Assembly: GCF_000417875.1 (NCBI RefSeq)
Contig: NW_006920872.1
Location: 852,594-916,593 of the forward strand
Length of the DNA stretch: 64,000 nucleotides
Origin: Pseudozyma flocculosa PF-1
Lineage: Eukaryota > Basidiomycota > Ustilaginomycetes > Ustilaginales > Ustilaginaceae
Direction of reading: 5' to 3'
This document shows, one piece after another, positions 8,753-49,990 of the stretch. Position 1 is the stretch's first letter, and every line of letters begins with the position of its first letter. The position numbers and the translations under genes were made by a program. Below the pieces are notes generated by a model, which saw only the letters and a program-made list of their open reading frames with translations, made no database searches and had not been told where the DNA came from.

Positions 8753-9340
8753 ATGTCAGGACCGACAGCCAACGAGCCGGTGATCGTCGTCAGCCCAGAG
8801 AGCAGGGGCACCGTGTACGGCCAGCCCGCCACGCTCGTCGACGTCTACCTGCCGGTGCACTACGACGCCTACGAGAGAACGCTCACGGCCTTTCTCCCGC
8901 GCTGGCTCGACGAGCACCTGACGCTGGACAAGCAGTGGTTCTTTGTCGACGTCTTCAAGTTCGAGCCTGCCGGTCTGGCCGGCACGCCGCCGCCGCCGCT
9001 GTCGCTCCTCTCGGCCAAGGTGCTCAATATCGTCGTCCGACCCATCTTTGTCGATCCAGACCACTCGATCACGGCCTTCGTGCCGCCTCGACACGAGCTG
9101 GTGCTGCTTCAGGCGTACAGTGAGCAAGAGCTCCGCCGCGCTCACGAGAAGTTGAGGGCGACGTCGGACCTCTTTGAAGCCAACCTGCTCCGACCCTTTG
9201 CCTACGAGCTCTACGTCGCCGAGCATTCGAGGCTCCGCCTTATCGCAATCGCCGATGCGCTCAATCGAGATTACTGGAAGTGGGCGCTTTACGTCCTCTG
9301 CCTCGATGCCGAGACGTACCGCGATAGCCTGCTCGCCTAG
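8753..9340 (+). CDS. Small array protein A1 (unknown family)
   Basis: 195 residues, single exon, no signal peptide or membrane helix, so probably cytosolic or nuclear. It is the first of nine same-strand relatives between 8.7 and 27.2 kb. Shared marks are a beta-strand-like VDVYLPV (29-35), LPRWLD (48-53), LTLD, DVFKFEP (66-72), a strand IVVRPIFVD and a C-terminal YELYVAE followed by amphipathic helix. It diverges from A3-A5 by lacking the PSGL-GQM segment and having Pro-rich sequence in its place. I do not recognise the family and assign no function. The ATG is the first in frame after a C/T-rich leader and puts the WLD motif at the same distance (about residue 51) as in its relatives. Confidence 0.8.
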   Translation: MSGPTANEPVIVVSPESRGTVYGQPATLVDVYLPVHYDAYERTLTAFLPRWLDEHLTLDKQWFFVDVFKFEPAGLAGTPPPPLSLLSAKVLNIVVRPIFVDPDHSITAFVPPRHELVLLQAYSEQELRRAHEKLRATSDLFEANLLRPFAYELYVAEHSRLRLIAIADALNRDYWKWALYVLCLDAETYRDSLLA

Positions 9341-10141
9341 GTCGACCTGGACCAGACAAAGGCCCGAGGGCAGCGGCTAGGTACGTCGAGATGCATCCGC
9401 CGTGGTCGCGCCCAGACGGCAAAGCCTCTGACGCTTCAAACACATTCCCCCCTCTCTGTCAATCTGTTCCGACGGCAGATCCGGACCTTTCTGCGTTCTC
9501 CTGGTGACCCGATGGTCCTGCCCTCAACCTGTCCGCGGATGCGTGTCGATGTCGCCTGGCCAGCACACGAGATCACAAAGCGACGGCAATACAAGGACCA
9601 GCTCGGCCAGTGACCTCGTATCCTGGTCTGAAGCGAATCGATCCGGCTCCCGTCTCCTCTCGGCCGGTGAGGGGAGCATCTCGGGCGAGATCGGGGCGTA
9701 GCCGCGCCATGGCCGTCCACGCTGGTTCCGGCTCGGGGCGGCGTTGTCGAGCTCTCTTGAAGGGGTGGACTAGCCCAGGAACCACCGGGGCGGTCTGCAC
9801 CGTTGCAAATAAAGTGCAAACGGACCAGGGTGCGGCATAGCTGCTGACCTGATGCGGCAGGGCACAAAGGGGATGAGGGGGCCGGCTTCACGTCTGCGCT
9901 AGTCTGCGTCGCCTTTTCGTCCCAGCGTTGGTCTGCACGAGACAGGTCGTCTTCTAGCCCGCTCGGGCGGAAGACCTGCAGCCTCGCCGTTGACCTGCTG
10001 CGCAGCCCCGTCCTTCTGCTCCCACAGGATAAAAAGGCAAACAGCGCACGCCTCCTCCTTCCCTCTCTTCCGCCATCTTCGCCACGCATACCTCTCTCCA
10101 CGTCGCTCGACTTCATCGCCCGGACATCAAAGCTGCTCGCC
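9341..10141. other. array spacer A1-A2
   Basis: Non-coding spacer with no convincing reading frame and no relic of the array family seen. Its right end carries a TATA-like motif and a C/T-rich leader for the next copy. Confidence 0.5.
10028..10037 (+). promoter_or_regulatory. TATA-like element of array gene A2
   Basis: GATAAAAAGG lies about 105 nt before the ATG at 10142, followed by C/T-rich leader. The spacing suits a fungal core promoter with a short 5' leader. Assigned by motif only. Confidence 0.45.
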
Positions 10142-10696
10142 ATGTCCTACCTTGCCTGTGAACATGATCCCGTCGTCAGCGTGCGACCGTCGAGCGGCGG
10201 CATCGTGTACCGGCACACCTCAACACTGATCCTCGACGTCCATGTGCCGATCCACTTTCGCGAGCTCCAAGGCACGCTGGCCAAGCTTACCCGTTGGCTG
10301 GATGAGTATCTTACCCTCGACGTGAACAAGTTCTTCCAGGACGTATTCAAGTACGTGCCGGCTCACTCGCCCATCCCGGCGACCAACGATCCTAAGACTG
10401 TCATACACATTGTCGTCAAGCCGGTCTTCGTTAGGGACGAGCTTCGAATAGCTTGGCGCGAATGGCCCAAGCTGCTCGCTTACCCTCAGGCCACGGTTCA
10501 GGCGGCATACGTCGCCCGCCGCCAAGCGACAGACGCGTTGAAGACTCAGCTCGGCCTGTTTGTCTTCGAGGTAGTGCTTACCCCGGACAGCAAAGACAAG
10601 ATCGAGGATCTGGCAAGGGCCATGTCGGCGGCCTCGCGAGCGGCTCTTGACAATCTCCGCCGCGCTGCGGAAGCGTGCCGCGACCGCGCCTATTGA
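10142..10696 (+). CDS. Small array protein A2 (unknown family)
   Basis: 184 residues, one exon. The family core is clear: LDVHVPI (31-37), RWLDEYLTLD (51-60), DVFKYVP (67-73), then the strand HIVVKPVFV and the C-terminal VFEVVLTPD in place of YQLYLAEP. It ends with an Ala/Arg-rich helix. It lacks the PSGL-GQM segment of A3-A5, as A1 does, and shares with A1 the N-terminal pattern V-V-S/-P-S-G-VY; these two look like the closest pair. No signal peptide, membrane helix or known domain was seen. Confidence 0.8.
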   Translation: MSYLACEHDPVVSVRPSSGGIVYRHTSTLILDVHVPIHFRELQGTLAKLTRWLDEYLTLDVNKFFQDVFKYVPAHSPIPATNDPKTVIHIVVKPVFVRDELRIAWREWPKLLAYPQATVQAAYVARRQATDALKTQLGLFVFEVVLTPDSKDKIEDLARAMSAASRAALDNLRRAAEACRDRAY

Positions 10697-11759
10697 GCGT
10701 GCCCAGCTTGAGCAACGTAGGTCGGCCAAAGTAGGGCGGCCCTCAGTGTGTCCTATCAAGCAACTTCCCCCCTCAGCCTTGGCATGAGCACCGACTTGTT
10801 GATTTTCCGTCAATACCGTGTGATTCGACACGGGTCGAAAGTGGCTCGGCGAACTCTGGCTGACCCCTTCGTCGCTCCGCGTCCGCCACACGACCGCACA
10901 TCGCAGCCGCCGGACTGAGCGCTTATGAATGCCGCCGGAACATGACCCACAATCCGCTACAAGATCGCCCAGGCTCGGCCGTCATCATACGGCACGCTTC
11001 AAGCCCTAGCAAGTCATTCAGCTGCGACGTGCGCTGCGATCCGTCATGCAGAGCAGCTCGTTCGACCTCCCAGTCCCTCGTCAGTCGCTCCCCGAGAGCG
11101 CGATGCTTTGCTCCCATGCCCGTCGACTGCACTGCCTCTGTTGAGACTGCGCACACCGTCCAAGCACGAGTATCGTCGTAGGACAGCCACGCGACGCCAC
11201 ATTGTATCCTTTGTCTTCCCGCCTCGGTCTCTCCGCCTCAAATCAGATCTGACCGTTTCGCGTCCAAGCTTGCGCTAGCAGCTCGTAGCTCGCTTCCGTC
11301 CTTTGACTTACCGCATGTCGAGCCCAAAGCCCCTGTTTCAGGCACTGAAGTTGCCGCGCTGTAGTCGTCGCCCTCCTCTTCGGGTGTCGTTTTCCGCACC
11401 AGCTTCCGCTCCCTCGCACGCCATTTGCCGCTCCACCGTCGCCCATCGATTGAGGTACGACATCCTGCGAGCGGAGAGCGATTTGAGCACGCCCTGCCGA
11501 TGGAAACGTGACCAGTCACTTTTGGAGGTTCCTGAGATGCGGCGCCGATGATTCCAGCGTCGAGCGAAGGTTCCGCCTCTGAACAGACGACGTCTCTGGT
11601 TTCCAGGCTGTACAAGGGGACGCACAAAGCCAACAGCCAGCGGCCGGGAGCGGCGTTGACGGATCTAGCGCCGAAACAGGCCGAGCCGCAGGGAAGGTTG
11701 TGATCGGCTTGGTCCTTGCAAACGCCCCGAGATGAGGTCCACGTCAGCGCCAGCCTTGC
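10697..11759. other. array spacer A2-A3
   Basis: Short overlapping frames only and no family relic recognised. The last 40 bases lead into the C/T-rich leader of A3. Confidence 0.45.
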
Positions 11760-12563
11760 TTGCACTGGGTCTCGTCTCGCCTGGCTTCCGTCCTTCCTTT
11801 CATTCCTTCCTCTCTTCCTCTCTTCCTTCCGTCCTTCCTTCTGTCCTCTCTCTCTCTCTCTCCCATCATCCCGTCCTCCCCGCCGCTTCCGTCCCTCCAG
11901 TCATCCCACGCCGCTCATGACGCCCTACTGCTTCCTTCCGACTACTTCATCAGTGTCGACCCGTCCAGTCTCTGTGGCAGTCGATTCAAGACGGTCATCA
12001 AGGTCTGTCTTCCCATCTCCGTCGCCTCCAACCAAAACCCGTACGCCATACAAGCGGTGCTTCCAACTTGGCTTGACCAGCATCTCAAGCTCAACAAGGA
12101 GGGCTTCTTTCATTCCGTCTTCAAATTTACACCCTCAGGACTCAACGAGCAGATGAGCAGTAGCTGCCAGCACATCGTCGACATCGTCATCAGACCGGTC
12201 TTCGTCCCAGTCCCACCTTTGTCGGGGTCGTATGTCAGCCGCGGTATCTATGCCTATAGGCCGCAGAAGGTGACAGAGGCGGTACTTGCCCATGGCGGGG
12301 TCGAGGATGTCCTCTCGACTCGACTTGGCGATGTCGTTTTCCAAGTCTACCTCTGCGATGATGCTGGGCAGCGCATCGCCGAAATCGCGCGGGAAATGCG
12401 CAGCGAGTGGAACGCCAGCCTCGACGTACTGAAGAAGCGGGCTGTCGACTTCAAGCAGGCAGACCTTCCCGACATTGTGCAGACTATCAAAGGCCGGAGG
12501 GCCGTTGCTCCGACTGCCTCTTACGTTCTTGTGGCCTGTCCTCCTCGCGACAAGGTGCTATAA
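11760..12563 (+). CDS. Small array protein A3, start codon probably displaced
   Basis: The family core runs from about 11919: FKTVIKVCLPI, LPTWLDQHLKLN, VFKFTPSGL-EQM, then HIVDIVIRPVFVP and the C-terminal FQVYLCDDAGQR. It groups with A4 and A5. The only in-frame ATG (11760) adds a 52-residue leader translated from C/T-rich DNA (Leu/Ser/Pro runs) that looks like untranslated sequence. An ATG at 11917-11919 sits exactly where the relatives start (it would put WLD near residue 52) but is one base out of frame with the core. So either the gene now uses the long hydrophobic leader, which could act as a membrane or secretion signal, or it is a fresh pseudogene. It also has a C-terminal extension of about 25 residues. 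Confidence 0.65.
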   Translation: MHWVSSRLASVLPFIPSSLPLFLPSFLLSSLSLSPIIPSSPPLPSLQSSHAAHDALLLPSDYFISVDPSSLCGSRFKTVIKVCLPISVASNQNPYAIQAVLPTWLDQHLKLNKEGFFHSVFKFTPSGLNEQMSSSCQHIVDIVIRPVFVPVPPLSGSYVSRGIYAYRPQKVTEAVLAHGGVEDVLSTRLGDVVFQVYLCDDAGQRIAEIAREMRSEWNASLDVLKKRAVDFKQADLPDIVQTIKGRRAVAPTASYVLVACPPRDKVL

Positions 12564-13578
12564 TGTCTCCCCCGACTCGTGCTGCAGATGTGAGTTGGGT
12601 CTAGGCTGCAGGGGACCTCTGCAGTCTGGTTCTCGACGGAGCTGACCTGGTATGACATCTCTCGACCATCATCTGCGGGCTCCTCTTTCTGGCCATGCGC
12701 AGGCCTATCCTTTCGGCCAGACGAGAGCTCCGTCGACCCACTTCTCTTCATTGCAACGAAAGCGACAAGCGCAAGAGTCCTCGACCGCCGCCGTCTTCTG
12801 CTCATCCCTCCGCTACCCGACGCTTCCTTCCGCTGCCTTCCCATCGTCTCGGAGCAGATAGGCTTGGCTCGGCCTGGCTCCCTCTGTACCTCAGTCACAC
12901 CCAGTTGTGTCCATGTTGACTTGCTCCATCTCCTTCACGCCACGGCTCTGTGCCAGAGCGGTACGACCTTCTCCATTTCCTGCTGATGTAGACCTCGTTG
13001 GCTCTGTGGAGAGTTCCGCCACCACCCCTCTACTGAGGAAAGGTGGGGACCTTCCCTCATCGTCGACAAAAGCCGAGCGGAATGAGACGCCTTGTGTTCA
13101 TGTGCCTACGTTGCGAGAACGTCCGCAGACGTGGTAGGACAGCCAGGAAGGGAAGCCTGCGGCCGATTCGCTCCGCGCGTGCTCGACAGCAACCGCCGCC
13201 CGCGCCAGCATTAACCTGACTAGCTGTTGCTCGCGCGTCGTGAGTTGAAGGGAATCTGCATCTGCGCGACCGTCTGCGTGGGTGCAGGCGGCGAGGTCGC
13301 GCCAAAGAGACGCCGGCCGGCGCCCGCAGGAAAATCGCCAGCGAGGACAGGGTCGCGTGCGAGTCCCTTTCTCCCTTGGCACCGCACCACCACCACTAAC
13401 GACAACAACAACAGCAGCTCCGCCAAGCCAGCCTCCGCCCCTCATCTCGTCGAGTCTTCTCGCCGCTTCTGGCATCGACCGCCACGCTCGCTGCATCTCA
13501 GCCCCAATTGTCGCACACGCTCGCCGCTGCGCCCGATCTCCACGCCATCGCTCGCGTCGGCGACCGCTACTCGTCACG
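12564..13578. other. array spacer A3-A4
   Basis: Spacer without a recognised gene. A C/T- and CAC-rich leader precedes the ATG at 13579. Minus-strand frames here are Arg/Ala-rich shadows. Confidence 0.45.
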
Positions 13579-14157
13579 ATGAAGCGTCTCGCGCAGTCGA
13601 GCCTCTACATCGACTACCGCACGGAGAACACGGGCGACCTCGCCTGCAAGACCGTCATCGAGGTGCTCGTGCCCATCGCCCTGGCCGACAACAAAAAGGG
13701 CCCGCCCAGGGTGACCGAGGCTCTCCCGCGATGGCTCGACGAGCGCCTCTACCTCGATACGGAAACGTTCCTCCTGGACGTCTTCCACTTCCGTCCGTCG
13801 GGCCTTGAGGGACAGATGAGCATGTACTGCCAGCGCGTCGTCGACATCCTCATCACGCCCGCGCTCGTCCCCGCCGAGTCCCTCCCCTTTGCCTCCGGGG
13901 GAAGTCGGGCGCTCAAGCTCGGCAGCGACCAGTTTGATGCTGCTCTGGCCGCATACTCCGAGGGCGCCCTCTCCAAGCAGCTCGGCAGCAACGTCTACCA
14001 GCTCTACCTTGCCGAGCCCGCCAGGCAGCGCCTCAGTCAGGTCGCGGCGGCAAAGTCCAAGGCGTGGAACTCGAACCTCGAGGCGCTCGAGGCGCATGCC
14101 ACCAAGTTCCACGACGACGTCCTCCCTGGCATTCTGGAGACCCGTCGAAGGCAGTGA
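13579..14157 (+). CDS. Small array protein A4 (unknown family)
   Basis: 192 residues. The start is the ATG at 13579 (cacgATGaag), although the frame is open further upstream, because it matches the relatives in length and puts RWLD at 51-54. Core features are KTVIEVLVPI (24-33), LPRWLDERLYLD, DVFHFRPSGL (67-76), GQM, VVDILITPALVP, and YQLYLAEPARQRL in the C-terminal third, followed by a helix ending in basic residues. It is very close to A5 (shared LPRWLD, DVF-FRPSGL, YQLYLAEPARQ). No signal peptide or membrane segment. Function unknown. Confidence 0.85.
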   Translation: MKRLAQSSLYIDYRTENTGDLACKTVIEVLVPIALADNKKGPPRVTEALPRWLDERLYLDTETFLLDVFHFRPSGLEGQMSMYCQRVVDILITPALVPAESLPFASGGSRALKLGSDQFDAALAAYSEGALSKQLGSNVYQLYLAEPARQRLSQVAAAKSKAWNSNLEALEAHATKFHDDVLPGILETRRRQ

Positions 14158-15435
14158 AGCATCGCTGCAGCCCCTCGCCGGCATCTTGCGCGGTAGGTGC
14201 GCATGCAGGCGACCAATGCCGATCCGCGCTCGAGAGAGGTGGCGCCGTCCGGATCTCGACTGATCTGACCTAGTCCTCCCTCCGCCGGGCTCTTCTCCGC
14301 CGCCTTCCAGTCTCGAGCAGACATCGAGGGCCGTTACAACCAGCCGGAAAGGCAGTCGGAATCGCTACGAGTCCAAAAGTCGTTGCACCGCGGGCGAGCA
14401 ACGCGAGCAAGAGCGTCGCTAAGCCCAGCCCGCAGTCGGTCACCTCCCCCTCTCGAGTACAGCCGCTAGCCCTTTCCATCGCCGGCCTGGATGTGGACCC
14501 CAAGAGGTCGCCTCTGCCTCTATTGGCAACCCTTCCGCGTCGTGCCGTCTCGAACCCGCCTCCGCTACACGCAGAGCGGCGATCAGCGCGCCCTGTCCTA
14601 GATTCCCCCGTCCCGTTGTGGAAACACGGCGACATCCCAAACGTCGCCTCGCATCTCTTCCGATCCCTGGATTGAACGCAGAATCATCTGGATGAGATCG
14701 TGGGCGCATCAGACTGCCATGAGACGGGTAGAATGAGGCAGCTGTGTGCAGGGGAAAACAAGCAGGATCGGGGGCCGGTGAAGCGCCAGGGCGTCCAGCA
14801 CGCGGCGTGGCAACGAAGGTCGGCGGTGAATGCCCAGCAGGAGGTCGCGCTCTCACGTGCAGAACCGACAGAGCCAGGCCCGCCTAGCGAGACGGGCGAG
14901 TTTGGCAGGGAGAGAGGGCGGGCAGGGAAGGACGCTCGATCGGCCGAGTGGCTCACAGGCGAGGCCGCTCGCACGGTGGGCCCAGACCGTGGCTGCGTGG
15001 CTTGTTGTGGCTGGGTGGGCCTCGTCGTCGTCGAATTCTTGCCCTGCATGGAAGCCAGGCCAGCACCAGCCCTCTGGCAGGCCGGACCCAGGCCCAGCCC
15101 AGCCTAGCCTGGCTCAACCCAGCCAAGCCCAGACGGCACGCAGCTCGTCAGCCCGCCTGCCTGCTCACCTGCCCGCCTGGGGGTCTGGCCGCCCGCCCTG
15201 CCTGGCCGCCCGCCCTGCCACGCCGGCAGGCCAGGGTGAACTGACTGGCGCGCTCCCGCCTGCCCCCTTCCGTCCCGCCACCACTGCACGGGTCTAAACG
15301 TGCTATCATATCCGGCGAGTATCGCAACCCCAGCGCACACACTCTCGCTCTCTCTCACACACACACACACAGACACACACCAAGATTCCTCGCCGAGCTT
15401 TGTTGCCGACGGGGACTTCTACAGATACTGAAAGT
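14158..15435. other. start of the 7-kb island inside the array
   Basis: After A4 the array is interrupted. This part has GGCCA/GCCCA-type short repeats near 15.06-15.24 kb and a CA run. No gene was recognised on either strand. Confidence 0.45.
15356..15381. repeat. CA dinucleotide run
   Basis: A nearly perfect CA repeat with one G interruption lies just before the 15-bp minisatellite. Confidence 0.8.
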
Positions 15436-17304
15436 ATGCGCCTTGCCTTTGTTTGGTTGTTCTTGGTGCCGGTCGCCCTCGGGCGGCTGGCTACAGGGCG
15501 ACACGACAAGACGGCGGCAAGCGTGACGGGCGACAAGACGACGGGTGACAAGACGACGGGCGACAAGACGACGGGCGACAAGACGATGAGCGACAAGACG
15601 ACGGGCGACAAGACGATGGGCGACAAGACGACGGGCGACAAGACGACGGGCGACAGGACGACGTACGACAAGACGATGGGCGACAAGACGACGGGCGACA
15701 AGACGATGGGCGGCAAGACGATGGGCGACAAGACGATGGGCGACAAGACGATGGGCGACAATACGACGGGCGACAAGACGATGGGCGACAAGACGATGGG
15801 CGACAAGACGACGGGCTCAAGGCGATTGCTGACGTGGCGGGGGGTCAAAGACCCAACGGTCATCCTGCTCCCCATGCTATGGGAGCACAGGCGAGTAGAT
15901 GTGGTTGCTCCGTCGCTGTGGTCCGTCCGGGCCGTGTTCATGCTGTTCTTCGCTTCGACCTTCTGCCGGGACGACGCCTCTGGCGCTGCTCCAGTGGATG
16001 GCCGGGGTGATGCGGCGGTGAATGCGGGTCCGATGGGCATATGCAGACGTTGGCGCTCGGGTGTCGCCAATGCGGGCGATTGCTTCGGCAGCGTCGTCAT
16101 TGTTGATGGAGGCTTTGGGGCGGATGAGGAGGAGGCAGGGCAGTTGGCAGATGTGGCTGCTCGTCGATGGACGCGCAGGGAGCATGCAGCCGCGGCTGCT
16201 CTGGCTGATGGCGGCGTGGACGACTCTGACCGCAAGGCTAGGGAACGCCGAGAGGCTGACCTCGTCCTTGCTGTCGAGGACTCTGCTCGTGGTTGTCAGA
16301 TCGGGATCCGCGGTGTCGAGCGTCGAGCAGCAGCCGACGCTCACGCTGCTGAGGATGTCGAGCGGGAAGGGCGGTGGAGATGGATGTTGTTTGGTGGCGA
16401 GGAGAGGGGGATGCTTGCCCCCGAAGATGCCGCTCGCCGTCGTCGCCGTCAGAGAGGGGTCCGGGCTGCTGAGCAGCGACTCGTGGCGCCGGATGCCCCA
16501 GGCGGCGGCGTCGTGGTGGAGAGACGAGCCGGCTACGAAGGTGAGGGCGCTGTCAGGTGTGCCTGGTCCTCGCGTTTGAGGAGGCACGTCGACGCAGTCG
16601 ACGTCGCCATCAGGCAGCCGACAGCAGCCGCGAGGCTGAGGTCCGCCCCAGGCAGAGCGAGAGGCTTCGACGTGGCTTCTTGGCATGGCCAGGACGAGGG
16701 GCTCGGGCCGGTGGCCCTTTGGGTCCGTGAGACCGTGCCGGGCCGAGTTGAGGACAGACTGATCTACTTCATCGCCTCCTTTTCAGCAGCACGCAGGAAC
16801 CTCGACAACATCAAGACGACGACGAGATGGCAAGACCAAGACGACGACATCAAGGCGACGACGGCGGGACGGCAAGACCAAGGCGACGACATCAAGGCAA
16901 CGATGGCGGGTCGACAAGACCAAGGCGACAACATCAAGGCGACGACAGCGAGACGGCAAGACCAAGACATCAAGGCGACGACGGCGGGACGGCAAGACCA
17001 AGGCGATAACATCAAGGCGATGATGGCGCGACGGCAAGACGAAGGCGACGACATCAAGGCGACGACGGCGGGACGGCAAGGCGAAGGCGACGACATCAAG
17101 GCGACGATGGCGAGACGAAAAGGTGAAGGCGACGACATCGAGGCGACGAAGGCGATACGGCAAGGCAAAGGCGACGACATCAAGACGACGAAGGCGAGAC
17201 GGCAAGACCAAGGCGACGACATCAAGACGACGACGGCAAGACGAAAGGTGAGTACCGCCGGCACGCGCGCTGCCTTCCAAGACGACGTCGTCGCTGCGCG
17301 CTGA
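15436..17304 (+). CDS. Possible secreted tandem-repeat protein (uncertain)
   Basis: A frame open from 15400 to 17304. From the ATG at 15436 it begins with a plausible signal peptide ([16 protein letters not shown]), then 19 five-residue repeats of type [10 protein letters not shown], a unique middle, and about ten 14-residue repeats of type [14 protein letters not shown]. Both repeat units are multiples of three, and one shortened unit (36 instead of 42 bp) also keeps frame, which argues for translation. Against it, the middle is Arg/Ala/Gly-rich with weak GC3 bias, and the opposite strand over 15877-16686 has more gene-like codon use. Treat as a candidate; the two readings exclude each other. 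Confidence 0.3.
15526..15810. repeat. 15-bp minisatellite, 19 units
   Basis: Nineteen head-to-tail copies of a 15-bp unit (ACGGGCGACAAGACG and point variants), with no length changes. On the plus strand each unit reads T/M-G-D-K-T. Both strands stay open through it. Confidence 0.9.
15877..16686 (-). CDS. Unrecognised minus-strand reading frame
   Basis: A 269-codon frame opposite the middle of the plus-strand repeat ORF. Its codons are strongly GC-ending, like the confident genes nearby (for example runs of GAC ATC CTC AGC), and its composition is mixed rather than Arg/Ala-rich. This makes it a candidate exon of a gene or of a decayed element. I recognise no domain, motif or splice partner, and it ends close to the 15-bp minisatellite. 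Low confidence. Confidence 0.2.
16802..17248. repeat. 42-bp minisatellite, about ten units
   Basis: Degenerate tandem units of about 42 bp (core GACATCAAGGCGACGACGGC) with one 36-bp unit. Plus-strand translation of a unit is [14 protein letters not shown]. Conservation falls toward the right end. Confidence 0.85.
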
Positions 17305-17380
17305 CCACCAGCCTGAGGCCCCCTCTTCGGCCCCTCGTCGCAGACATCAAGATTGGGCGTCAAGATTGGGCTTATAATGC

Positions 17381-17430
17381 TTTGGGATCCGGGGGGATTT
17401 TGATATTTGGGATCCGGGGGGATTTTGATA
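17381..17430. repeat. 25-bp perfect tandem duplication
   Basis: Two identical adjacent copies of a 25-bp unit beginning TTTGGGATCCGG and ending in TTTTGATA, followed by a partial third copy (TTTGGG). This is unlike the surrounding sequence. Confidence 0.85.
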
Positions 17431-17770
17431 TTTGGGTCGGGGGTCGCCGTCAGCCCCTTGGCGTCGGCCCCTGGCGGGAAAAGGGCGGGCTTCGCTCGGC
17501 CTCGTCGCTACTCTTTCGGCGGTGCCACCTCGCCCGCGGCCGGACCCGCTAGATGCGGGGTTAGCCGCGGCAGGTGCGCGACCAATGGGGAGTTCAAGGC
17601 GTCGGGGCTGGGGTCGTCCCGCCGGGGTCGCCCTGTTGCAACAATCGACCCCCCCGAGGCGGTGCCCGTCTGCAGTGCTGGGGAGGGGTACCTCGGCGTT
17701 GCAGGCGGGCTGAAAAGCCGCCTTGGGCGCCGGCAAAAACGTTGTTCCTCGTCGACACCATCATGACGAG

Positions 17771-17875
17771 ACATCCTCGCATGCGGACTCGAACGCAGGG
17801 CCTCGGACCAGCCAGAATTCGCGGCAGTTCGGTCAACGCGGTCGCAAAACCGCTAGGCCAAACTGGCCTCGAACA
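17771..17875 (-). ncRNA. tRNA-like or tRNA-derived repeat (tentative)
   Basis: Read on the minus strand, the segment has TTGGCCTAGCGG, which fits a polymerase III A box, and about 65 nt later GTTCGAGTCC, which fits a B box. Small GC-rich hairpins lie between them. The T-stem does not pair as in a functional tRNA and no clean acceptor stem forms, so a degenerate tRNA or a tRNA-derived short interspersed element is more likely than a working tRNA gene. Confidence 0.25.
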
Positions 17876-19175
17876 ATTTGATTAACTTTTTACCGCTTAT
17901 GTAGCTTTGCTGCGCCCCTGCATTTCCCGCTGACCAGACAACGGACGCGCGAGCGTTGGTTGCCCTGCTGGACGGCTCCACTCCCCCTTTTTCCATCCCA
18001 CTCGGCCGCTGCAAGCCCCGACCTCGCTTCCTTTCTCACGGTCACCTCTTTCATCGTCACTCGCCGCCAGCATCGTCGCCGCTCGCGATCACCCACGTCC
18101 GTCTCGTCTCCCTTGCACTGACCCCCCAGTCGACTCCTTCGAATGCCCGTCCCACTGGCAGACCACTGAGCCGGCTGGCCGAGGCATTCGCCCGATCCAG
18201 GTGAAGGGCTTGCGATCGCGCTCCGTCGACTATCGCGGCTGCCGAGCGGAGCTGACGTTCCCCTTCCGATTCGGCGTGACACCTGGCAGTTTCTGCGCAT
18301 GGTGCTCACCCAGATGCACCTCGACCATGCACTTTGCATTTCGCCGAAGGTCCAGGGTCCTGCAGTCCGCTTCGTGACCGGACGACTGCCGACGGCCAAT
18401 CGATCCGCCGACCAGCGTCGCGCGACACTTCCCTTCCAAGCCGGCACGCCGCGCCCATCGCCCGTCCCGACTGCTGCTACATATCTCGAGCACTTGCAAC
18501 TTGCTGCAACGCTCATCGATCCTGCCTCGCGATCCGTCCACCTCGATGTCCATTCGCCTGCTCGACGGGCGCTCTGCGCAGCAGACCGAGGTAAGCAAGG
18601 TAAGCAGCAGGCCCAGATCGTCTTGCCCCCATTTTGCAGTCGTCGTGCAGGTCAGATCAGAGGCTGGGCGCTGTCCGGCCCGGAACCGCATCAGTCTCGG
18701 TGCCTCACAGCGGTCGGAGCAGGCCGTCTCGGCGCTATTCGGCAGAGAAGCGCTCATTGCTGTCCGTCACCGTGCGATATCTCGACGTCATCGTCCCTCA
18801 CCTCGGACCATGCGGCGGAACATCGGCGAGCTGGCGTACCAACGATGAAGGATGACCACAGCAACGACCACGAGCTCGAAGGCCGCAGCCCCCTCAGACC
18901 ATCAAGACCCGTCAAGGTCACAGAGCGAAGGCCTCCGCTGGCATTGAAGGTATTCAGGTGAGTGAGATTGATTGCAGAGCGAGCGTGGGGGTGGTGAGAC
19001 GAGCCGGACTTCGATGAAGCGGAGAGAGCGAGAAGATGGCGCAGGCCGGGTCATCTACGGAGCGGGAAAGAGCGTGGAAGAAGTCTCCGACTACGGCGAC
19101 GAAATGGAGGGCGGAGCGAGGACCGAGCGTCGAGGCGGTGTCTGCAGCGGCTGACGGCAGCCTCAGCTCGCCCTA

Positions 19176-20390
19176 CTACTGCTGCTGCACCTCGTCGCCG
19201 GCGACCTTCTTGTCGCTCTCGTCGTCCTTCTTGTCGCCCTCGTCCTTCTTGTCGGCGTCGCCCCCGACCTTCTCCTCAGCGCCGCCCTCGACCTCCTTGT
19301 CGGCGTCGCCCTTGGCGACCTGCGACTCGCTGTCGTGGTCCTGCTTCTTGGCAGACTGGCCCGTCTGCGCCTTGTAGTCGTTCTTGACAGCGTCCTTGGC
19401 GCGTCCAGGGAGCTTGACGATGTAGTCGAAGAAGTCCTTGGTCTTTTCGACCTTGGTCTTGGCCTTGTCCTTGCCCTCGTGCCACTTGTCGTCGACCTTG
19501 TCCTTGCCCTCGTCCCACTTCTCGTGGACGTTGTGGCCGAGGTCCTTGGCTGCATCCTTGGCGGCGCCCGTGGCCATGCCCAGGCCGTAGCCGAAGCGGA
19601 AGCCGGGCGAGGCGGTGTCGGGGGCGTCGGAGCCGTCCTTGTCGTCGCTCTTGCTCTTCGACTTGTCGACCTGCGAGTGGGCCGGGGTGACGGGTGTGAC
19701 CTGGGTGAGATCCTGGTCCTCAAAGTCGCCAGAGTACGGGTAGCTGAGCTCGTCCGACTCGGGGTACAGGTCTACGTAGTCGTTGCGGTCAGCCTGCTGC
19801 TCGCCGCGCTTCTGGCTGTACCTGTCGTTGATCACCTGCGGCTGGTTCTCGGGCTCGTCACGGAGCGCAGGGGCGTCAAGGGCGTCGTCTCCGTCGTCGA
19901 GGGCGTCGCCCTTCCTCTTGTCGATGCTCGAGTCGGACTGCTTGGAGGTGAGGCGCTTGCAGACGGCGTCGATGGGGCTCCACTCGGACGCATCGTCGCC
20001 GAGCATGCTCCACTGTCCCTTGCGGTCGATGCGGAACATGCGTCCATCGGCGGCCTTCATGAAGCTGGCGTAAGCCTTGGCCCACTCGGGAACGTCGGCA
20101 GCGGAGGTCGACGAGAGGGCATCGTACTGCTCGCCGCAGGGCGAGGCAGTCTCCTCCCAGTTTCCCGCCTGGCCGCGGTACCACACGCCGTTGGTCGGCA
20201 TCAGAGAGCAGCCGACGCCGTGCTCGGCGGTCTTGTCGGCCGAAGAGTCCAGGGCGTTCTTGGAGCGCCTCGAGAAGCTGCGGCCTCGGCCCTGAACGGA
20301 CGAGCGAGCCTCGACGCCGGCGTTGCCGGAGATCGACACAGCCACGAGGACCGTGGAGAGGAGGAGCGAAAAGGCGGTGCAGGTCTTCAT
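19176..20390 (-). CDS. Secreted Lys/Asp-rich protein with LEA-like helix (unknown)
   Basis: 404 residues on the minus strand, single exon. The ATG at 20390 gives a clear signal peptide (MKTCTAFSLLLSTVLVAVS, cleavage near residue 28); an ATG seven codons upstream is less likely. The first half has three Cys (GVGCSL, SPCGEQ, AVCKRL) and three dibasic sites of Kex2 type (SFSRR, IDKR, YSQKR). The second half has a glycine-rich patch and a highly charged helical stretch with repeated KWDEGKDK / KWHEGKDK, like late-embryogenesis-abundant proteins, then a Lys/Asp/Glu tail ending EVQQQ. Likely an extracellular or cell-wall protein or a Kex2-processed peptide precursor. It is the only well-supported gene in the island and opposes the array in direction. 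Confidence 0.75.
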   Translation of the reverse strand: MKTCTAFSLLLSTVLVAVSISGNAGVEARSSVQGRGRSFSRRSKNALDSSADKTAEHGVGCSLMPTNGVWYRGQAGNWEETASPCGEQYDALSSTSAADVPEWAKAYASFMKAADGRMFRIDRKGQWSMLGDDASEWSPIDAVCKRLTSKQSDSSIDKRKGDALDDGDDALDAPALRDEPENQPQVINDRYSQKRGEQQADRNDYVDLYPESDELSYPYSGDFEDQDLTQVTPVTPAHSQVDKSKSKSDDKDGSDAPDTASPGFRFGYGLGMATGAAKDAAKDLGHNVHEKWDEGKDKVDDKWHEGKDKAKTKVEKTKDFFDYIVKLPGRAKDAVKNDYKAQTGQSAKKQDHDSESQVAKGDADKEVEGGAEEKVGGDADKKDEGDKKDDESDKKVAGDEVQQQ

Positions 20391-20546
20391 GTTGGCGAGC
20401 GGGCGTGGCAAGAGAGGGAGAGGGTGCGAGAGTGAAGGACGGTGTTGGTGCGGGCTGAGGATTAAAGGGACGAAGAGAGGGTGAGGGAAAGGAGGGTGAG
20501 TGGATCGATGAAGAGGAGGGGTCGAGGGAGGGCGACGAGCGGCGAT

Positions 20547-20554
20547 GTTTTATA
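20547..20554 (-). promoter_or_regulatory. TATA box of the secreted-protein gene
   Basis: TATAAAAC on the minus strand, about 157 nt before the ATG at 20390. It is the cleanest TATA element in the window, suggesting a strongly regulated gene. Confidence 0.6.
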
Positions 20555-21313
20555 CCTCGCCGTGAGATGAAGCACGGATGAAGCATGGCAGCCTCCCTCT
20601 GTTCGCCTGGCAGCGTCTCAACGCTGCCGTCGAGCAAGCTCCTCGGCTGAACGAGCTGGCGAAGCCGTTTCGGGGCGTTGATGGGGGCGGCCGCGTCGAT
20701 GGAGCCACCAGCGACGATGCGCCGAGCCGGCAGCGATGGCTTGCCGGCACGCCCTCCGGTCAGCCCCGAGGTGGTCAAGGTGGGTGGGCGATTGGTCAAG
20801 GTATGTAGCCTGCCTGCTCTCGGTGGGCGATGGCAGTGCACCTCTCTGCTCGTCCCCACCCACCTCACCAAGCTTGCCTTCACTCGACGCCCCCTCGGGG
20901 CGTAGGGCGCGGTCGAGCAGCCGTACGTGGCGATGCTCTGTCTCTCCCGGTGGCGGCAGACTCTCTCGTCGGACAGACGGCCGAGGCCGGCGCGATTCAG
21001 CACAGCCTGCACCGCTCACGTCGTTGTCGCAGCCGTCGAGGCCCTGGTTGCAGCACCGTCAGCATTGCTTGCGTGATCAGCCGGGCCAAGCAGAGGACGC
21101 AGGGCAGCTCGAGTGGCCGGCCGCTCCAGCCAGGAGAGGCGCCTGCGAAAATGGCCGCGGCCGAAATTCAGAGGGCGAGGCTGGCTGTCTGCCCCCTCTC
21201 GCCCTTTCTCGCCTCTCTGCACCCGACCACCACAGCCTCCCTTCCCAGCATCAACGCCCCGACGCCCTTTCGCACACACAGCTCGCCACCAATCACTCTG
21301 AAAGTCGCCCAGC
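20555..21313. other. spacer between the island and array gene A5
   Basis: A divergent spacer between the secreted-protein gene (minus) and A5 (plus). No gene or family relic recognised; the A5 leader is C/T-rich. Confidence 0.45.
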
Positions 21314-21925
21314 ATGGAGTTGGCAGGACAGCTCGAGCGCTGGGACCTCTACGCCGCCTACCGCACAAAGGATCTGCCCGACGGGGGTCGCCAGACAATC
21401 ATCGAGGTCTGCGTGCCTATGACCGTCGACCGCTGGCCCAACGAAGCGCCCCTCGTTCCACAGCTACCTCGTTGGCTCGACCACCGCCTCCGCCTCGACG
21501 CGGCAGAGTTCCTGATCGACGTCTTTCGGTTCCGTCCCTCGGGCCTCGACGGCCAGATGACTGCATTCAGCCAACAGGTCGTCGACATTGTCATCACGCC
21601 CGTCTTTGTCCCCTATCTGTCCTTCAGCAGTGTGGACCCGGGCGTCGTACTGGAAGCGTTCGAGTCTCGCGAGCTCTGCGCCGCCCTGCTGCACCATGTC
21701 GACCACCACGACATTCTTTCGACCTCCTTGGGAAGCCTCAAGTACCAGCTCTACCTCGCCGAACCGGCAAGGCAGCACATCGCCGAGCTCGCGGGTCGTA
21801 ACGCTGGGAAGTGGCGCAGAAAGCTCGATCTTCTCAAGACCCACGCCGCCTGGTTCCAGGACGAGATTCTGCCCGAGCTTCTCGAGGTGCGCGGCATGAA
21901 GCGCAAGGCCCGCCGAGGCCAGTGA
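21314..21925 (+). CDS. Small array protein A5 (unknown family)
   Basis: 203 residues, single exon, starting cagcATGgag. Core features are TIIEVCVPM (28-36), LPRWLDHRLRLD (51-62), DVFRFRPSGL (69-78), GQM, VVDIVITPVFVP, then a variable loop (about 110-140) and YQLYLAEPARQH. It finishes with an amphipathic helix and a basic tail. It is nearest to A4 although 7 kb of unrelated sequence separates them, so the island was probably inserted after the A4/A5 duplication or carried between them. No signal peptide or known domain. Confidence 0.85.
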   Translation: MELAGQLERWDLYAAYRTKDLPDGGRQTIIEVCVPMTVDRWPNEAPLVPQLPRWLDHRLRLDAAEFLIDVFRFRPSGLDGQMTAFSQQVVDIVITPVFVPYLSFSSVDPGVVLEAFESRELCAALLHHVDHHDILSTSLGSLKYQLYLAEPARQHIAELAGRNAGKWRRKLDLLKTHAAWFQDEILPELLEVRGMKRKARRGQ

Positions 21926-23013
21926 AGGGTCGGAGCAAGGAATGCGTCGGTGGCCTGCAGCGCTCGTGTTGCCGTCTTCCGCCCTTTCCGGACCTGGGTG
22001 AGTTCGCTCGAGGTCGCAGTCGCTCGCAGCACACCCACACCGGCTGACTCGACTCATCTCTTCGACATCTTAGGCGCATTTTCTACCTGCGCAGAGCGTC
22101 TCGCACCCCTACATATCCGTCACCAAGCACTGTTCCCCTCACCACGATTTCCTTCGCGCCTTTCACGCCGCGCAACGGTCCCTCGCGACGACCTCCCCGC
22201 AGCCTCGATCGATGTTGTCGAGCACTCGAGCAGCGACGGGCCACAGGAGATCGAATGAGCAGCAGACTTTCCGCACCTCGGGCAAGCCTTTCGACTTTCG
22301 AGCAACCTCGGTCGATGAGTTGCTCCTGACCTCGCCAGTCTGTCGCAACCCTTCACCATCCCTCCAAGTCTTTCGAGCCATCCTTCCCACGCTCGTTCCG
22401 TGTCGCAAAAGCCTGAAACCGTCATTGTCTCGCAGTCGTCGCGCCCGCTGCACTCGCTCCACGCTTGCCGGTCCTGGACTGCAATCAGAGTGGCTGCTCG
22501 GGATTCCTCTCGAAAGCATATCGGGGGCCGATTCCAGCGTTGCTGCTCATGACAAGATGGGTTTTGGACGAGCCCGTGTGTGCGTGCTTGTCGCCACTTT
22601 GGCAAGCGGCGTTCAGTCCAGAGCTCAGGGGCGAAGCACGCAGACCGACGAGAGCCCGGCGTCGGCTTGTTTCGATTCCTCGCCGCCATGGTCAGCCTAG
22701 GCTGTTCAGCGGCCGAACGGTTCTCGAGCCATGGAAATGGCCATGGCCAACGGGAGCCAGGTTCGCCCGTGTGCGGAGCAGGTGGCAGGGCCGCCGCCGC
22801 TCAGCAGCAGGGGCAAGCAGCCAAAAAAGCGGCAGGCAGAAAAGGCGCGCTTGCTGGCGACAGTTCCTCGTCCTTCCTTTCCACCACCACCGCCTCCACC
22901 ACGACCGCCTTCACCCACACCTATTCGTGCGGCCCCTCTTTGTCTCCGCACGTGCACGGCAGCATCGAGCCAGACACCACCTCCACCGCCGCCAGGACTC
23001 GCATCTCCCCATC
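21926..23013. other. array spacer A5-A6
   Basis: No gene recognised. A low-complexity frame (Pro/Ser) leads into the ATG at 23014 and probably is the leader of A6. Confidence 0.45.
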
Positions 23014-23613
23014 ATGTCCATGTTCCTGCCCGAGGGTCCCGTCGTCACCCTGCCGTCGCAGCCTCCCCCCAGCGGCACGACCCAGATCACCCTCATCGAG
23101 GTCTTGCTGCCCGTCTCGATCAATCTGTCCAGCCACACCCTGTCAGCTCATCGTCCCCGATGGCTCGACCCGTACCTCGATCTGGACAAGGGCAAGTTCC
23201 TCCTCGACGTCTTCCACTTCAAGCCGGTCGGCTGCGATGCCGAAGCCGTGCCTCAGAGCCATGCGCACCTCGTCAGGGTCCCCATCAGGCCCGTGTGGTT
23301 CTCGAGCACCTCGCGCGAGGAGGTCGAGAATTGGATCCTCGCCTACCCGAGCCGCAGCGTCGCGATCGCCTGTCGAAGCTACCCGAGCGCCACCAACGTC
23401 CTCAGGACCCAGCTGCACGACGTCGAGCACGAGCTGTACCTTGCCATGCCGTCTTGGCAGGAGCTCAAGAAGAGGGCAGAGGGACTGGCAAGGCAGTCGC
23501 GCCCCGACCTCGAGAACCTCACGGCTTGTGCGCAGAGGTTCCAGCAGCAACTGCGCACCTTTTTCGAGGGCGGCAGCCGTCAGTCGAGCGTCTCTGACCT
23601 CGGCCATCGCTAG
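23014..23613 (+). CDS. Small array protein A6 (unknown family)
   Basis: 199 residues. The frame is open upstream, but the ATG at 23014 (atcATGtcc) matches the relatives and places RWLD at 49-52. Core features are TLIEVLLPV, PRWLDPYLDLD, LLDVFHFKP (64-71), a strand VRVPIRPVWF where others have ITPVFVP, and ELYLAMPSW in the C-terminal third, then a long amphipathic helix. More diverged than A4/A5. No signal peptide or membrane helix; function unknown. Confidence 0.8.
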   Translation: MSMFLPEGPVVTLPSQPPPSGTTQITLIEVLLPVSINLSSHTLSAHRPRWLDPYLDLDKGKFLLDVFHFKPVGCDAEAVPQSHAHLVRVPIRPVWFSSTSREEVENWILAYPSRSVAIACRSYPSATNVLRTQLHDVEHELYLAMPSWQELKKRAEGLARQSRPDLENLTACAQRFQQQLRTFFEGGSRQSSVSDLGHR

Positions 23614-24745
23614 CCTTGCAGCTCGACCATGGCAGACGGCAATCTAAGCGGGCGTCCACCCTCAACTAGCCTGGCCCAAGCTACAACACTCAGCACGTGC
23701 CCTTGTGAGTCGTGTCCGAGCCTCGACGTCGCCACTCTCGACGCTCGCTCGCTGACCCTGCCTGGTCGTATCGGTCCTCCCAGCACAGATGATGCAAGGC
23801 ACCGCATCAGCAAGCCACATGCAGCAACTCAAAGCGTCTCAAAGCCAAGCCGAAGCAGCAGCACAGCGAATCCAAGTCCCTCCTCGATCGGCCTCGAGCC
23901 AGGCCACGCCACTCAATTTCGATGTTCACAAGAGGCTTGGTCGATATCCGTCGTCCGACTCTCCTTGATCGCCAACGCAGCACTCCTCCCAGTCAGCTCT
24001 ACGAAATCACCTCACGTGTACCCTTGCGGGTAGCTCCAATCGCGACCGGCCTGCACCGCCTCTTGCGCTGCGCCCACCACGATATGCAACGTCGGCCCAT
24101 CCAGTATTTCCGGGTGTGAGGATATCTTCGGCGTCGTATCTCGCCTCACGAGAAGTCTGGTGCGGCAGGCCAGAGCGAGAGCTGTACGACATGCGTTAGA
24201 GAGGACCGCACAAGACCGGTAAGCCACAGCCGGGTGGCACGCCGGAGAGCAGGACAGCCTTCGCCGAATCCTACCTGCACTCGGCGTTGTGGCCGCGGTG
24301 GCTGCCCGGCTTTTAGTCGCGGCCCACACTCTTCGGCGAACGAAGGTTTGCATCCAAGGTTCCACGTTCCGGGGCGTAGCTGCTGCGCAGAAAGCGTGCG
24401 CGGTCGATTGCCACTGGATGCCCAGCTCGACGGGAGGAGCGCAGCCGTCGACGACCGCATGGGTCACCAACCGAGTGCTCGCACGCAGCCTTTGCGTCGC
24501 CCGCTGTGTGGCACTTGGCAGGTTTTTGCCAGCGTTGTGGTAGGCCAAGCGTCGCAGCCGGCTACACAGTACCTGAAAGACATATAAAGGACGACTCTCG
24601 ATGTGTCTCAGGCAGTCCGGAGCCCTCCTACCGACGCCTTCATTCCCACTCGACCACCCATCAAGACCGTTCACCCGCCTTTTCTCGCTTCTCGCAGTGC
24701 AACCGCTGGCCTTCAGTCTTCGCCTATCCGCTTTCGCTGCCTACA
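23614..24745. other. spacer between subfamilies A and B
   Basis: No convincing gene on either strand. A TATA element sits near its right end. Confidence 0.45.
24583..24590 (+). promoter_or_regulatory. TATA box of array gene B1
   Basis: TATAAAGG about 160 nt before the ATG at 24746, with a C/T-rich leader between. Confidence 0.55.
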
Positions 24746-25351
24746 ATGACCGTCACCACCGACCCCACCTGTCTCCACGGCTTCCGCGTCGTGATCAACC
24801 ACGAGCTGTTGCTGCATTCGCGAGCCCAAGTGATCATAACGATCCCGGTGACCATCGACAAGCTCTCGTCCACCGTGCGCGCCCACCTGCCCCGCTGGCT
24901 GGAACCGAAGGCCGACTTCGACGTCCTCTATTTCGCCCACAAGGCCCTCGGCCTCCCCTGTGGCCTCGAGCTGTACCACCCCGAGCTGTACTCGACCGTC
25001 GGCATGCGCAAGAGGGAGCGCGAGGTCGGAATTGTCTGGAACGTCCACTTCGCCATCGCCAACGTCGTCGAGCAGGACTCAGACCGCTACGGCACCGTGC
25101 TGCCTTACTGGGACCGCAGGACCGTCCTCGACACGCTCCGTGCGCAGAAGCTCGACGACGACTGCTTCGTGCAGCTGCCTTGGCTTAAGTCCAGGCAGCC
25201 CTGGAACAGCTCGACCTGGATCCTCAGGAGCATCGTCCACCGCATGGAAAAGGCGATCAACAAGCCGGAGATGGAAATGGTCTCCGCCAAGTTTGAGGAG
25301 GATCTCGTGTCTGCCACGGCGGCCTGGCGCGACCGCCTCAAGAGCTGCTGA
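24746..25351 (+). CDS. Small array protein B1 (subfamily B, intact)
   Basis: 201 residues, single exon. The N-terminal half matches subfamily A in order and spacing: VIITIPVTI (29-37), LPRWLE (48-53), then FDVLYF. After that it has its own signature: KALGLPCGLELYHPELY, WNVHFAIANVV, YGTVLPYWDRR, LPWLKSRQPWNSS and a C-terminal helix ILRSIVHRMEKAI. It is the only intact member of subfamily B here, followed by two broken copies. No signal peptide, membrane helix or known domain recognised. Confidence 0.8.
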   Translation: MTVTTDPTCLHGFRVVINHELLLHSRAQVIITIPVTIDKLSSTVRAHLPRWLEPKADFDVLYFAHKALGLPCGLELYHPELYSTVGMRKREREVGIVWNVHFAIANVVEQDSDRYGTVLPYWDRRTVLDTLRAQKLDDDCFVQLPWLKSRQPWNSSTWILRSIVHRMEKAINKPEMEMVSAKFEEDLVSATAAWRDRLKSC

Positions 25352-25890
25352 AGACGCTAAGGCCGGACCTTGCCCGGGATGGTGAGTAGGTGTCGGCTCC
25401 GCGCCAAGTTCGTGCGAGGTGGACTTTTGCTTACGGACGACCTCGTCCGGGCCCAAGAAGCCCTGTCTCATTCTTCAATTGTCCCATCTAGTTGGTAGCA
25501 CCGTCTCAAAAGCAGGGGCTTGAGCTGGCCAACGCCCCGACGGTTTAAGGCTTGGAGCTAAGCTCGTGCGCCGCGCTGACCATGTGCTGGCCACTCCGCC
25601 GCCCCCGGTGCCCCGAGAAAACGGGGCGAGAGGCCGGGGAGTCAGCCACATGGTTGCTTCTCGCTCTCGTCGACCTCATTTTCGTCGCGGCACATCGACC
25701 CTACACGATCTTCTTGGTCGTGTTTCCTGCTCTTCCCTCTTCCCTCTTCTCTCGTCGCTTCTATCATTTCCTCGCCGTCCTACTGCCACCTCCTCTCTCA
25801 CTCGGCTCTGCCGCATCGCTTCCCTTTGAATCGCTTTTCCTGCCCTCTCGACCACCCTCGGCGCCGTGCCGACCGCATCAATCTGCCACG
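25352..25890. other. array spacer B1-B2
   Basis: Spacer with a C/T-rich leader just before the broken copy B2. Nothing else recognised. Confidence 0.45.
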
Positions 25891-26504
25891 ATGGCCACCT
25901 TCGTCGACTCGGGGGTCTTGCGCGACTTCAAAGCCCGGATTACTCCTAGAGGCCAGCGTCCAGACCCGCGCGACCATCTTTTTGTCACTATTCCGGTCAC
26001 CTTCGCCTATCAGACCGGCACAGTGCGAGCTCAGTTGCCGACCTGGCTCGAAGTCGACGGTGGTTTCGACGTGCTCTACTTTGGAAAAAGGCCTTGGGGC
26101 TGCCGAGCGCTTTGGACCTCTACCACCACGAGCTCTGGTTAACTCACAAGGGCAGGGAGGCTCGCGAACTTCGACTCCAGTGGGATCTCGAGTACGTCGT
26201 CACCAGGATCGCCAGGGTCGATAGCGAAGAGTACGGCACCAAGCTCCCTTTCTGGGATGGCAAAGACGTCGTCATGATGCTCCACAAGCCACCAAACAGC
26301 ACCGGCCGCATCGTCCTCCGCAGACCTCTCTGTTGCTACCACTGAGGGTCATCTTTCTTCATCCTGCGAAGCGTCGTCGCACGGATGGAGAGAGCTATCG
26401 ACAGAAACGCGCGCAAATCGGTCTTCAAGGATTCCGAAAAGGCCATCAGGACGGCCACCCAGAAGTGGCTGGAGATCCTGGAACGTGCGAAACAGCAGGA
26501 GTGA
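25891..26504 (+). pseudogene. Broken subfamily-B copy B2
   Basis: Starts at an ATG in a good leader and reads family sequence (FVTIPVTFAYQTGTVRA, LPTWLEVDGG, FDVLYFGK). The frame is lost at the five-A run near 26086-26090, where the relative has one more base. Subfamily-B sequence then continues in the next frame (LGLPSALDLYHHELW, VVTRIARVDSEEYGTKLPFWD). Around 26310-26345 the frame is disturbed again, with a stop at 26343. A last matching segment (ILRSVVARMERAIDR through KWLEILERAK) ends at 26502-26504. At least two frame lesions, so a pseudogene unless one is a sequencing error in the homopolymer. Confidence 0.8.
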
Positions 26505-26835
26505 TCCTCCGCAGACAACGATGGACGGCCGCATGCACATTCCCAGGCTATCGTTGGACGACAGAGGCAGTCCAGCTCGTAACATGGCGATCTATAGACG
26601 AAAGCAGCGGCGGGTGGCGTCCAGCGGCCCTGACAAGACACCGGGCGCAGCATCGGCTGCGCGCGCGACCGCTTCGTTTCGTCGACAAGAGCAAAGACAA
26701 CGCGGCGCCCCTCGTTGAAGCTCAAAGTCTGACCAGGCTTTGTCAAGGAGGCGCTTGACCAGCCGAGCACACTGCCAGTCCATCCACAAACCTCTAAGTG
26801 GGCGGCGGAAAGCGACCGTCCTGGTGGGTTGACAC

Positions 26836-27153
26836 GTCGAGGTCGCCGTCAACAGGATCGTGGCCGAGGATGGCGAAGAGCTCGGCACACAGCTGCCCTT
26901 CTGGGACACCGCCGAGGACTCTGAGGCACTCTTTGCTCACTGCGCCGGAAACACATGGGCTTTTCTCCCATCGCTGCCCTTCCGACAGCCCTGGATGGCG
27001 TCTCAGCACGTTTTCCGCACGGTCGTCGAGGATATCCAGCGGGCCGTGGCGGAGAAGGAACGAGTCGACGCGTGCGACGAGCTCGACTGGGCCGTCCAGA
27101 CAGCGGCACTCGAATGGCGCGGCGCTCTCCGCAGGTCTGACGTCGCAGCGTAG
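26836..27153 (+). pseudogene. 5'-truncated subfamily-B copy B3
   Basis: Family sequence begins abruptly at VEVAVNRIVAEDGEELG, just after a stop codon, corresponding to about residue 95 of B1. It continues LPFWDTAED, LPSLPFRQPWMAS, HVFRTVVEDIQRAV and a C-terminal helix to a stop at 27151. The first half, including the WLE region, is absent. The remainder is open without lesions, so the truncation may be recent. There is no plausible start codon near the left edge. Confidence 0.7.
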
Positions 27154-49648: not shown

Positions 49649-49990
49649 CGTCGCCAGTCGAGAGGCACCGCAACTCTACGCTGCCGGGCAGTCCGGGCCA
49701 GTCAGAGACGTGGCGTCGTCCGGCAGACAAGACAACAGGTCTCAAACGCAATCTGCCTGCTCGTCCGTCGCTCACCAATCAGCCTTGGCTCTGTCCGCCG
49801 CTACTGTCACTTCCGACAATGATGTCCGAACCAGACGTGTTGACCGTCCCCAACGACGCTCTCACGGCGATACCGTCAGTCGGCTTGATCGACACCGGGG
49901 CGGCATGGATCGCAAGATGGCGTGGAACGGGTATCGTTGCAAGAACGGGAGTCTGGAAACGGACCGGGGACGCGACGCGACGGGGCGACG

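Follow-up and report, generated by a model that had tools for sequence, protein, structure and literature searches.

Tandem gene families that are confined to one lineage and evolve by birth and death are a general phenomenon, and fast-diverging orphan genes arranged in tandem are a typical feature of effector clusters in smut-like fungi. The array described here lies in a 64,000-nucleotide stretch of the Pseudozyma flocculosa PF-1 genome (positions 852594-916593 of contig NW_006920872.1, C4 below), which is referred to as the window. On its + strand, positions 8753-27153 carry nine homologous gene copies, A1-A6 and B1-B3. As in lineage-specific tandem birth-and-death families, the copies are, within the sensitivity of the searches, confined to one locus of this genome, lie on one strand, become less similar with distance, and include both intact and decayed members. 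In contrast to such families, the unit has no assignable known family, domain, or fold. With modest confidence, the array is explained as a single-locus, tandemly expanded birth-and-death family of approximately 190-residue alpha/beta proteins, probably intracellular, with a charged working site.

The copies, in window positions, are:

A1, 8753-9340, + strand: intact, 195 amino acids (aa).
A2, 10142-10696, + strand: intact, 184 aa.
A3, 11917-12563, + strand: open body to 12563; ATG at 11917 out of frame; retains just one of the five conserved charged columns.
A4, 13579-14157, + strand: intact, 192 aa; the copy used for the structure model.
A5, 21314-21925, + strand: intact, 203 aa.
A6, 23014-23613, + strand: intact, 199 aa; best B1 match among the A copies.
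B1, 24746-25351, + strand: intact, 201 aa; N-terminal stretch in common with the A copies; no relation to them detectable in the C-terminal part.
B2, 25891-26504, + strand: broken by a mid-gene frame change, then TGA.
B3, 26833-27153, + strand: remnant limited to the C-terminal half, open for 106 codons.

Six copies (A1, A2, A4, A5, A6, and B1) retain full-length frames of 184-203 codons, and for these the single-exon structure that a preliminary description had assigned to the entire array holds. It fails for the remaining three: A3 has no in-frame start at the expected place, B2 is frameshifted and carries a stop, and B3 is a 3' remnant. The body frame of A3 spans 11736-12560 with its first in-frame ATG at 12153, and the sole ATG within 11881-11995, located at 11917, is in a different frame. 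Both the nine same-strand copies and the occurrence of dying copies next to intact ones, as previously described, are borne out, the former by homology in BLASTP, tblastn, and window-profile searches and the latter by A3, B2, and B3 being broken or partial.

Homology, rather than frame length, is taken as evidence, because long chance frames are common at a GC content of about 64% (60.5-68% across the window in 4-kb steps); 58 ATG frames of at least 90 aa overlap positions 8000-28500. According to pairwise BLASTP, A1-A6 share 26.9-44.4% identity over 93-189 aligned residues (A3 taken as its open body), and in an eight-sequence comparison the A copies match each other with E-values from 6e-48 to 7e-11. 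A profile built from the six A copies was run on the 1231 stop-to-stop frames of at least 25 residues in the window. It reports its six members with E < 1e-70, B1 with 1.8e-5, and the N-terminal frame of B2 with 0.006, and beyond these nothing among the 1231 frames scores better than 2.9. As for B3, it is tied to B1 and not to A (tblastn E-value of 1.8e-10, or 1.4e-9 for the whole genome). A and B have in common about 45 N-terminal columns around PxxxxxxxTLxAxLPRWLD/E (hhalign P-value 1.9e-5, probability 77.5%), with a BLASTP E-value of 1.2e-6 across 29 residues for A6 and B1, and homology between their C-terminal parts is not detectable by hhalign (E-value 0.41). Of the core once proposed for all nine copies, the N-terminal PRWLD/E region is indeed found in both A and B, and the V-I-x-P-V-F-V strand is a feature of A only.

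The 23.05-Mb assembly (33 contigs) was searched with nine protein queries, one per copy, with the A3 body, the N-terminal piece of B2, and the B3 remnant representing the incomplete ones. All matches fall within C4:861346-879743, save two weak ones from the A3-body query (E-values 0.115 and 1.78), which were rejected as having no match to the family profile. Neither dispersed copies nor near-identical DNA elsewhere in the genome were found by these protein searches or by a DNA search with A1, which returns only itself. A mobile element family was likewise rejected, as dispersed copies were not found in this genome.

Similarity between copies drops with distance along the array (Spearman correlation of -0.53), and a gradient as extreme appears in 14 of 720 possible orders of A1-A6 and in 10 of 5040 when B1 is included. 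At an E-value of 1e-3, blastn matches between copies lie inside the coding parts with none in the spacers, and the remaining matches represent tandem repeats and one short inverted repeat. The duplications are taken as old because DNA matches are confined to coding parts and synonymous sites are near saturation. Since similarity follows gene order, the array has the appearance of a birth-and-death family that arose locally and long ago, and three marks of such a family are found together: homologous copies clustered at one locus, neighbors that are most alike, and intact copies next to decayed ones.

Among pairs of A copies, second codon positions are 45-64% identical and third positions 34-55%, with the second better kept in 13 of 15 pairs, which shows protein-level constraint behind the divergence. 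Synonymous divergence (dS) by the Nei-Gojobori method (NG86) ranges from 0.71 to 2.50, which is near saturation, and for this reason the ratio of nonsynonymous to synonymous divergence (dN/dS) cannot test positive selection. The divergence of the copies claimed earlier is in line with this saturation and with the protein identities given above. GC content at third codon positions (GC3) equals 0.71-0.90, being the lowest in A3 and A2, and 0.73-0.90 in the six intact copies. The broken or partial state of A3, B2, and B3 would also suit neutral leftovers, i.e., an old duplicated orphan family that is mostly decaying and has no present role. Such an origin appears quite improbable, because neutral copies of this age would not be expected to keep frames and GC3, and six copies do retain their full-length frames and the latter GC3 range despite near-saturated synonymous sites.

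Searches against Pfam, NCBIfam, PHROGs, and PDB sequences yield nothing credible for the array proteins, and as far as these libraries reach, the family is unrecognized, as it was at first sight. The best PDB sequence match, the methyltransferase domain protein 9sm3 (profile E-value of 0.014 over 91 positions), is isolated and was rejected as not credible, its likeness consisting of a weak profile match only; single-sequence PDB searches with B1 and A5 give no match. The AlphaFold model of A4 combines an alpha/beta fold and a long helix at the C-terminus (predicted local distance difference test, pLDDT, 74.7; predicted template modeling score, pTM, 0.72), and Foldseek reports no significant match between it and solved structures. 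The strand order of the A4 model is partly compatible with the alpha-beta-beta-beta-alpha-beta core of the PD-(D/E)XK superfamily, all structural matches being non-significant.

The non-significant matches are recurrent, and together with the conserved acidic residues they make up the likeness to the PD-(D/E)XK superfamily (herpesvirus UL24, R.SwaI). According to this alternative, the proteins have a restriction-endonuclease-like fold with a non-standard or dead site and are divergent nucleases or nuclease-derived binders. Among 50 listed of 158 viral Foldseek matches of the A4 model, four are UL24 (including rank 1, E-value 0.035), five are PD-(D/E)XK nucleases, and Cas4 and YqaJ appear once each; all these names are absent among 50 listed of 163 matches of the B1 model in the same search. 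For PDB, 50 listed of 57 A4 matches contain R.SwaI (two), Wolbachia CidB/CinB (three), and tRNA splicing endonuclease (two). UL24, Cas4, YqaJ, R.SwaI, CidB/CinB, and tRNA splicing endonuclease contain restriction-endonuclease-like parts, and the acidic set conserved in the A family would suit such a fold. The PD...(D/E)XK motif, however, was not found in the six-copy A alignment, which has neither a conserved PD nor a lysine two positions after acidic column 28, and the matches themselves are weak and do not establish the fold, which makes the alternative improbable.

Regarding location, the N-terminal hydrophobicity peak (Kyte-Doolittle, 12 residues) does not exceed 1.67 in the six intact copies, compared with 2.65 and 2.85 for two comparison genes of the window. 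By this crude test, which is not a dedicated predictor, the previously reported lack of a signal peptide is supported for the intact copies, and the array proteins are probably intracellular. The tandem arrangement of fast-diverging orphan genes would also suit effectors of a smut-like fungus that leave the cell by a route needing no classical signal. With no hydrophobic N-terminus seen in the six intact copies, this explanation is considered very improbable.

The conserved columns of the A alignment are mostly non-polar. Charged columns kept in all five intact A copies are E/D28, R51, D54, D60, and D67, four of which sit in the RWLD-x5-D-x6-D stretch, and these five residues are read as a putative functional site, catalytic or binding. 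Of these, A3 keeps only D54; K, T, N, and S occupy the remaining four columns, and 17 of 18 conserved non-polar columns are retained. Thus, of the columns common to the intact A copies, A3 has lost four of five charged versus one of 18 non-polar (Fisher p = 0.003), and when compared with each set of four intact copies, it lacks four to six of five to seven charged columns (p = 0.007 or lower). In the control without A3, each intact copy compared with the other four lost 0-2 of five to seven charged columns (p = 0.55-1.0). In the phylogenetic tree A3 clusters with A4 and A5 (support 88/95), and the loss of charged residues looks derived because these two groupmates keep them. On a plain reading, A3 would have lost its function at the charged site but kept the fold. 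In B1, columns 51, 54, and 60 are occupied by R, E, and D. At column 51 (11979-12488 and 25891-26100), T is found in both broken copies that retain the column, A3 and B2, and R in the six intact ones, which is too few copies to weigh.

Several points count against the birth-and-death family with a charged site. The genome searches score just the top candidates and are unable to bridge introns, and full support is lacking for all four inner branches of the tree. In two pairs, A2-A4 and A4-A6, third codon positions are better kept than second ones, and NG86 dN/dS values of 0.34-1.22, above 1 for A4-A6, are uninformative through saturation and GC bias. As for the charged columns, the result concerns one copy and 23 columns, and the pattern was noticed before testing. 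The control without A3 keeps the five columns by construction, and only extra columns could go; the first control, with A3 among the references, had only one or two charged columns and little power. B1 has no acidic residues at columns 28 and 67, and these are not markers of the whole family. Finally, a sequencing error or unusual initiation might account for the A3 start, and A3 may thus be an altered but still active paralog.

A more specific proposal is that the A copies are a new family of enzymes or binders built around an acidic site, which might represent a restriction-endonuclease-like branch lacking the motif and arose by one-locus expansion in one fungal lineage, with A3 as a natural dead-site paralog whose fold was kept; it is regarded as distinctly doubtful.

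Along the A alignment, the lowest substitution score belongs to loop 99-115 (mean BLOSUM of -0.22), where pair identity equals 0.17, compared with 0.61 in the PRWLD block; the lowest identity, 0.13, is found in segment 37-46. This loop, the diverged local copies accompanied by decayed ones, and the C-terminal half of the B copies without detectable relation to A would all fit a recognition or conflict array, in which intracellular proteins have diversified to recognize non-self or to match a changing partner. Positive selection, however, is unreadable at nearly saturated synonymous sites, which leaves the conflict, recognition, or dosage selection proposed in the preliminary description a conjecture. 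Among nine neighboring frames, three have a Pfam family, none of which is related to mating or incompatibility, and six have none at an E-value of 0.01, which neither supports nor excludes recognition. Overall, a recognition array seems possible but unlikely.

As for the surroundings, window genes of eukaryotic type revealed by the Pfam scan include palmitoyl-protein thioesterase and RhoGEF, and the presence of long genes with few introns would suit an Ustilaginomycotina-like basidiomycete. The array gap at 14.2-21.3 kb contains tandem-repeat stretches and a minus-strand frame without a match to the family profile. The repeats comprise a 15-base unit at 15525-15816 (19.5 copies, 91% matches) and a 42-base unit at 16815-17243 (10.4 copies, 84% matches), for which a 120-base period is also seen. 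The 404-aa frame inside the array (19176-20390, - strand) has a secretory-type N-terminus and a repetitive tail; it has no Pfam family, and its sole match in the genome is itself. Another frame of 1036 aa at 47052-50162 (+ strand), also without a Pfam family at an E-value of 0.01, matches frames on two other contigs, C8 (residues 644-746, E-value 4.6e-7) and C25 (residues 699-746, E-value 7e-4), and together they possibly form another orphan family.

Under the favored explanation of a single-locus birth-and-death family, the array would encode proteins, probably intracellular, whose acidic site serves binding or catalysis and which have multiplied and diversified locally. The five charged residues would form the working site, an acidic pocket accommodating a cation or a partner that is basic or carries phosphate, and the choice of partner would vary among copies through the variable loop 99-115 and the tails. 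Catalysis by the acidic site is conceivable and is suggested here with little force. The locus shows in a small space how an unannotated protein family was multiplied and partly lost at one place, where a broken copy points to the important residues. Should the charged site be real, its five residues and one natural loss would provide a direct testable handle on an unannotated family. If the proteins turn out to act in recognition or to be nuclease-like, they would represent a fungal system new to the libraries searched here.
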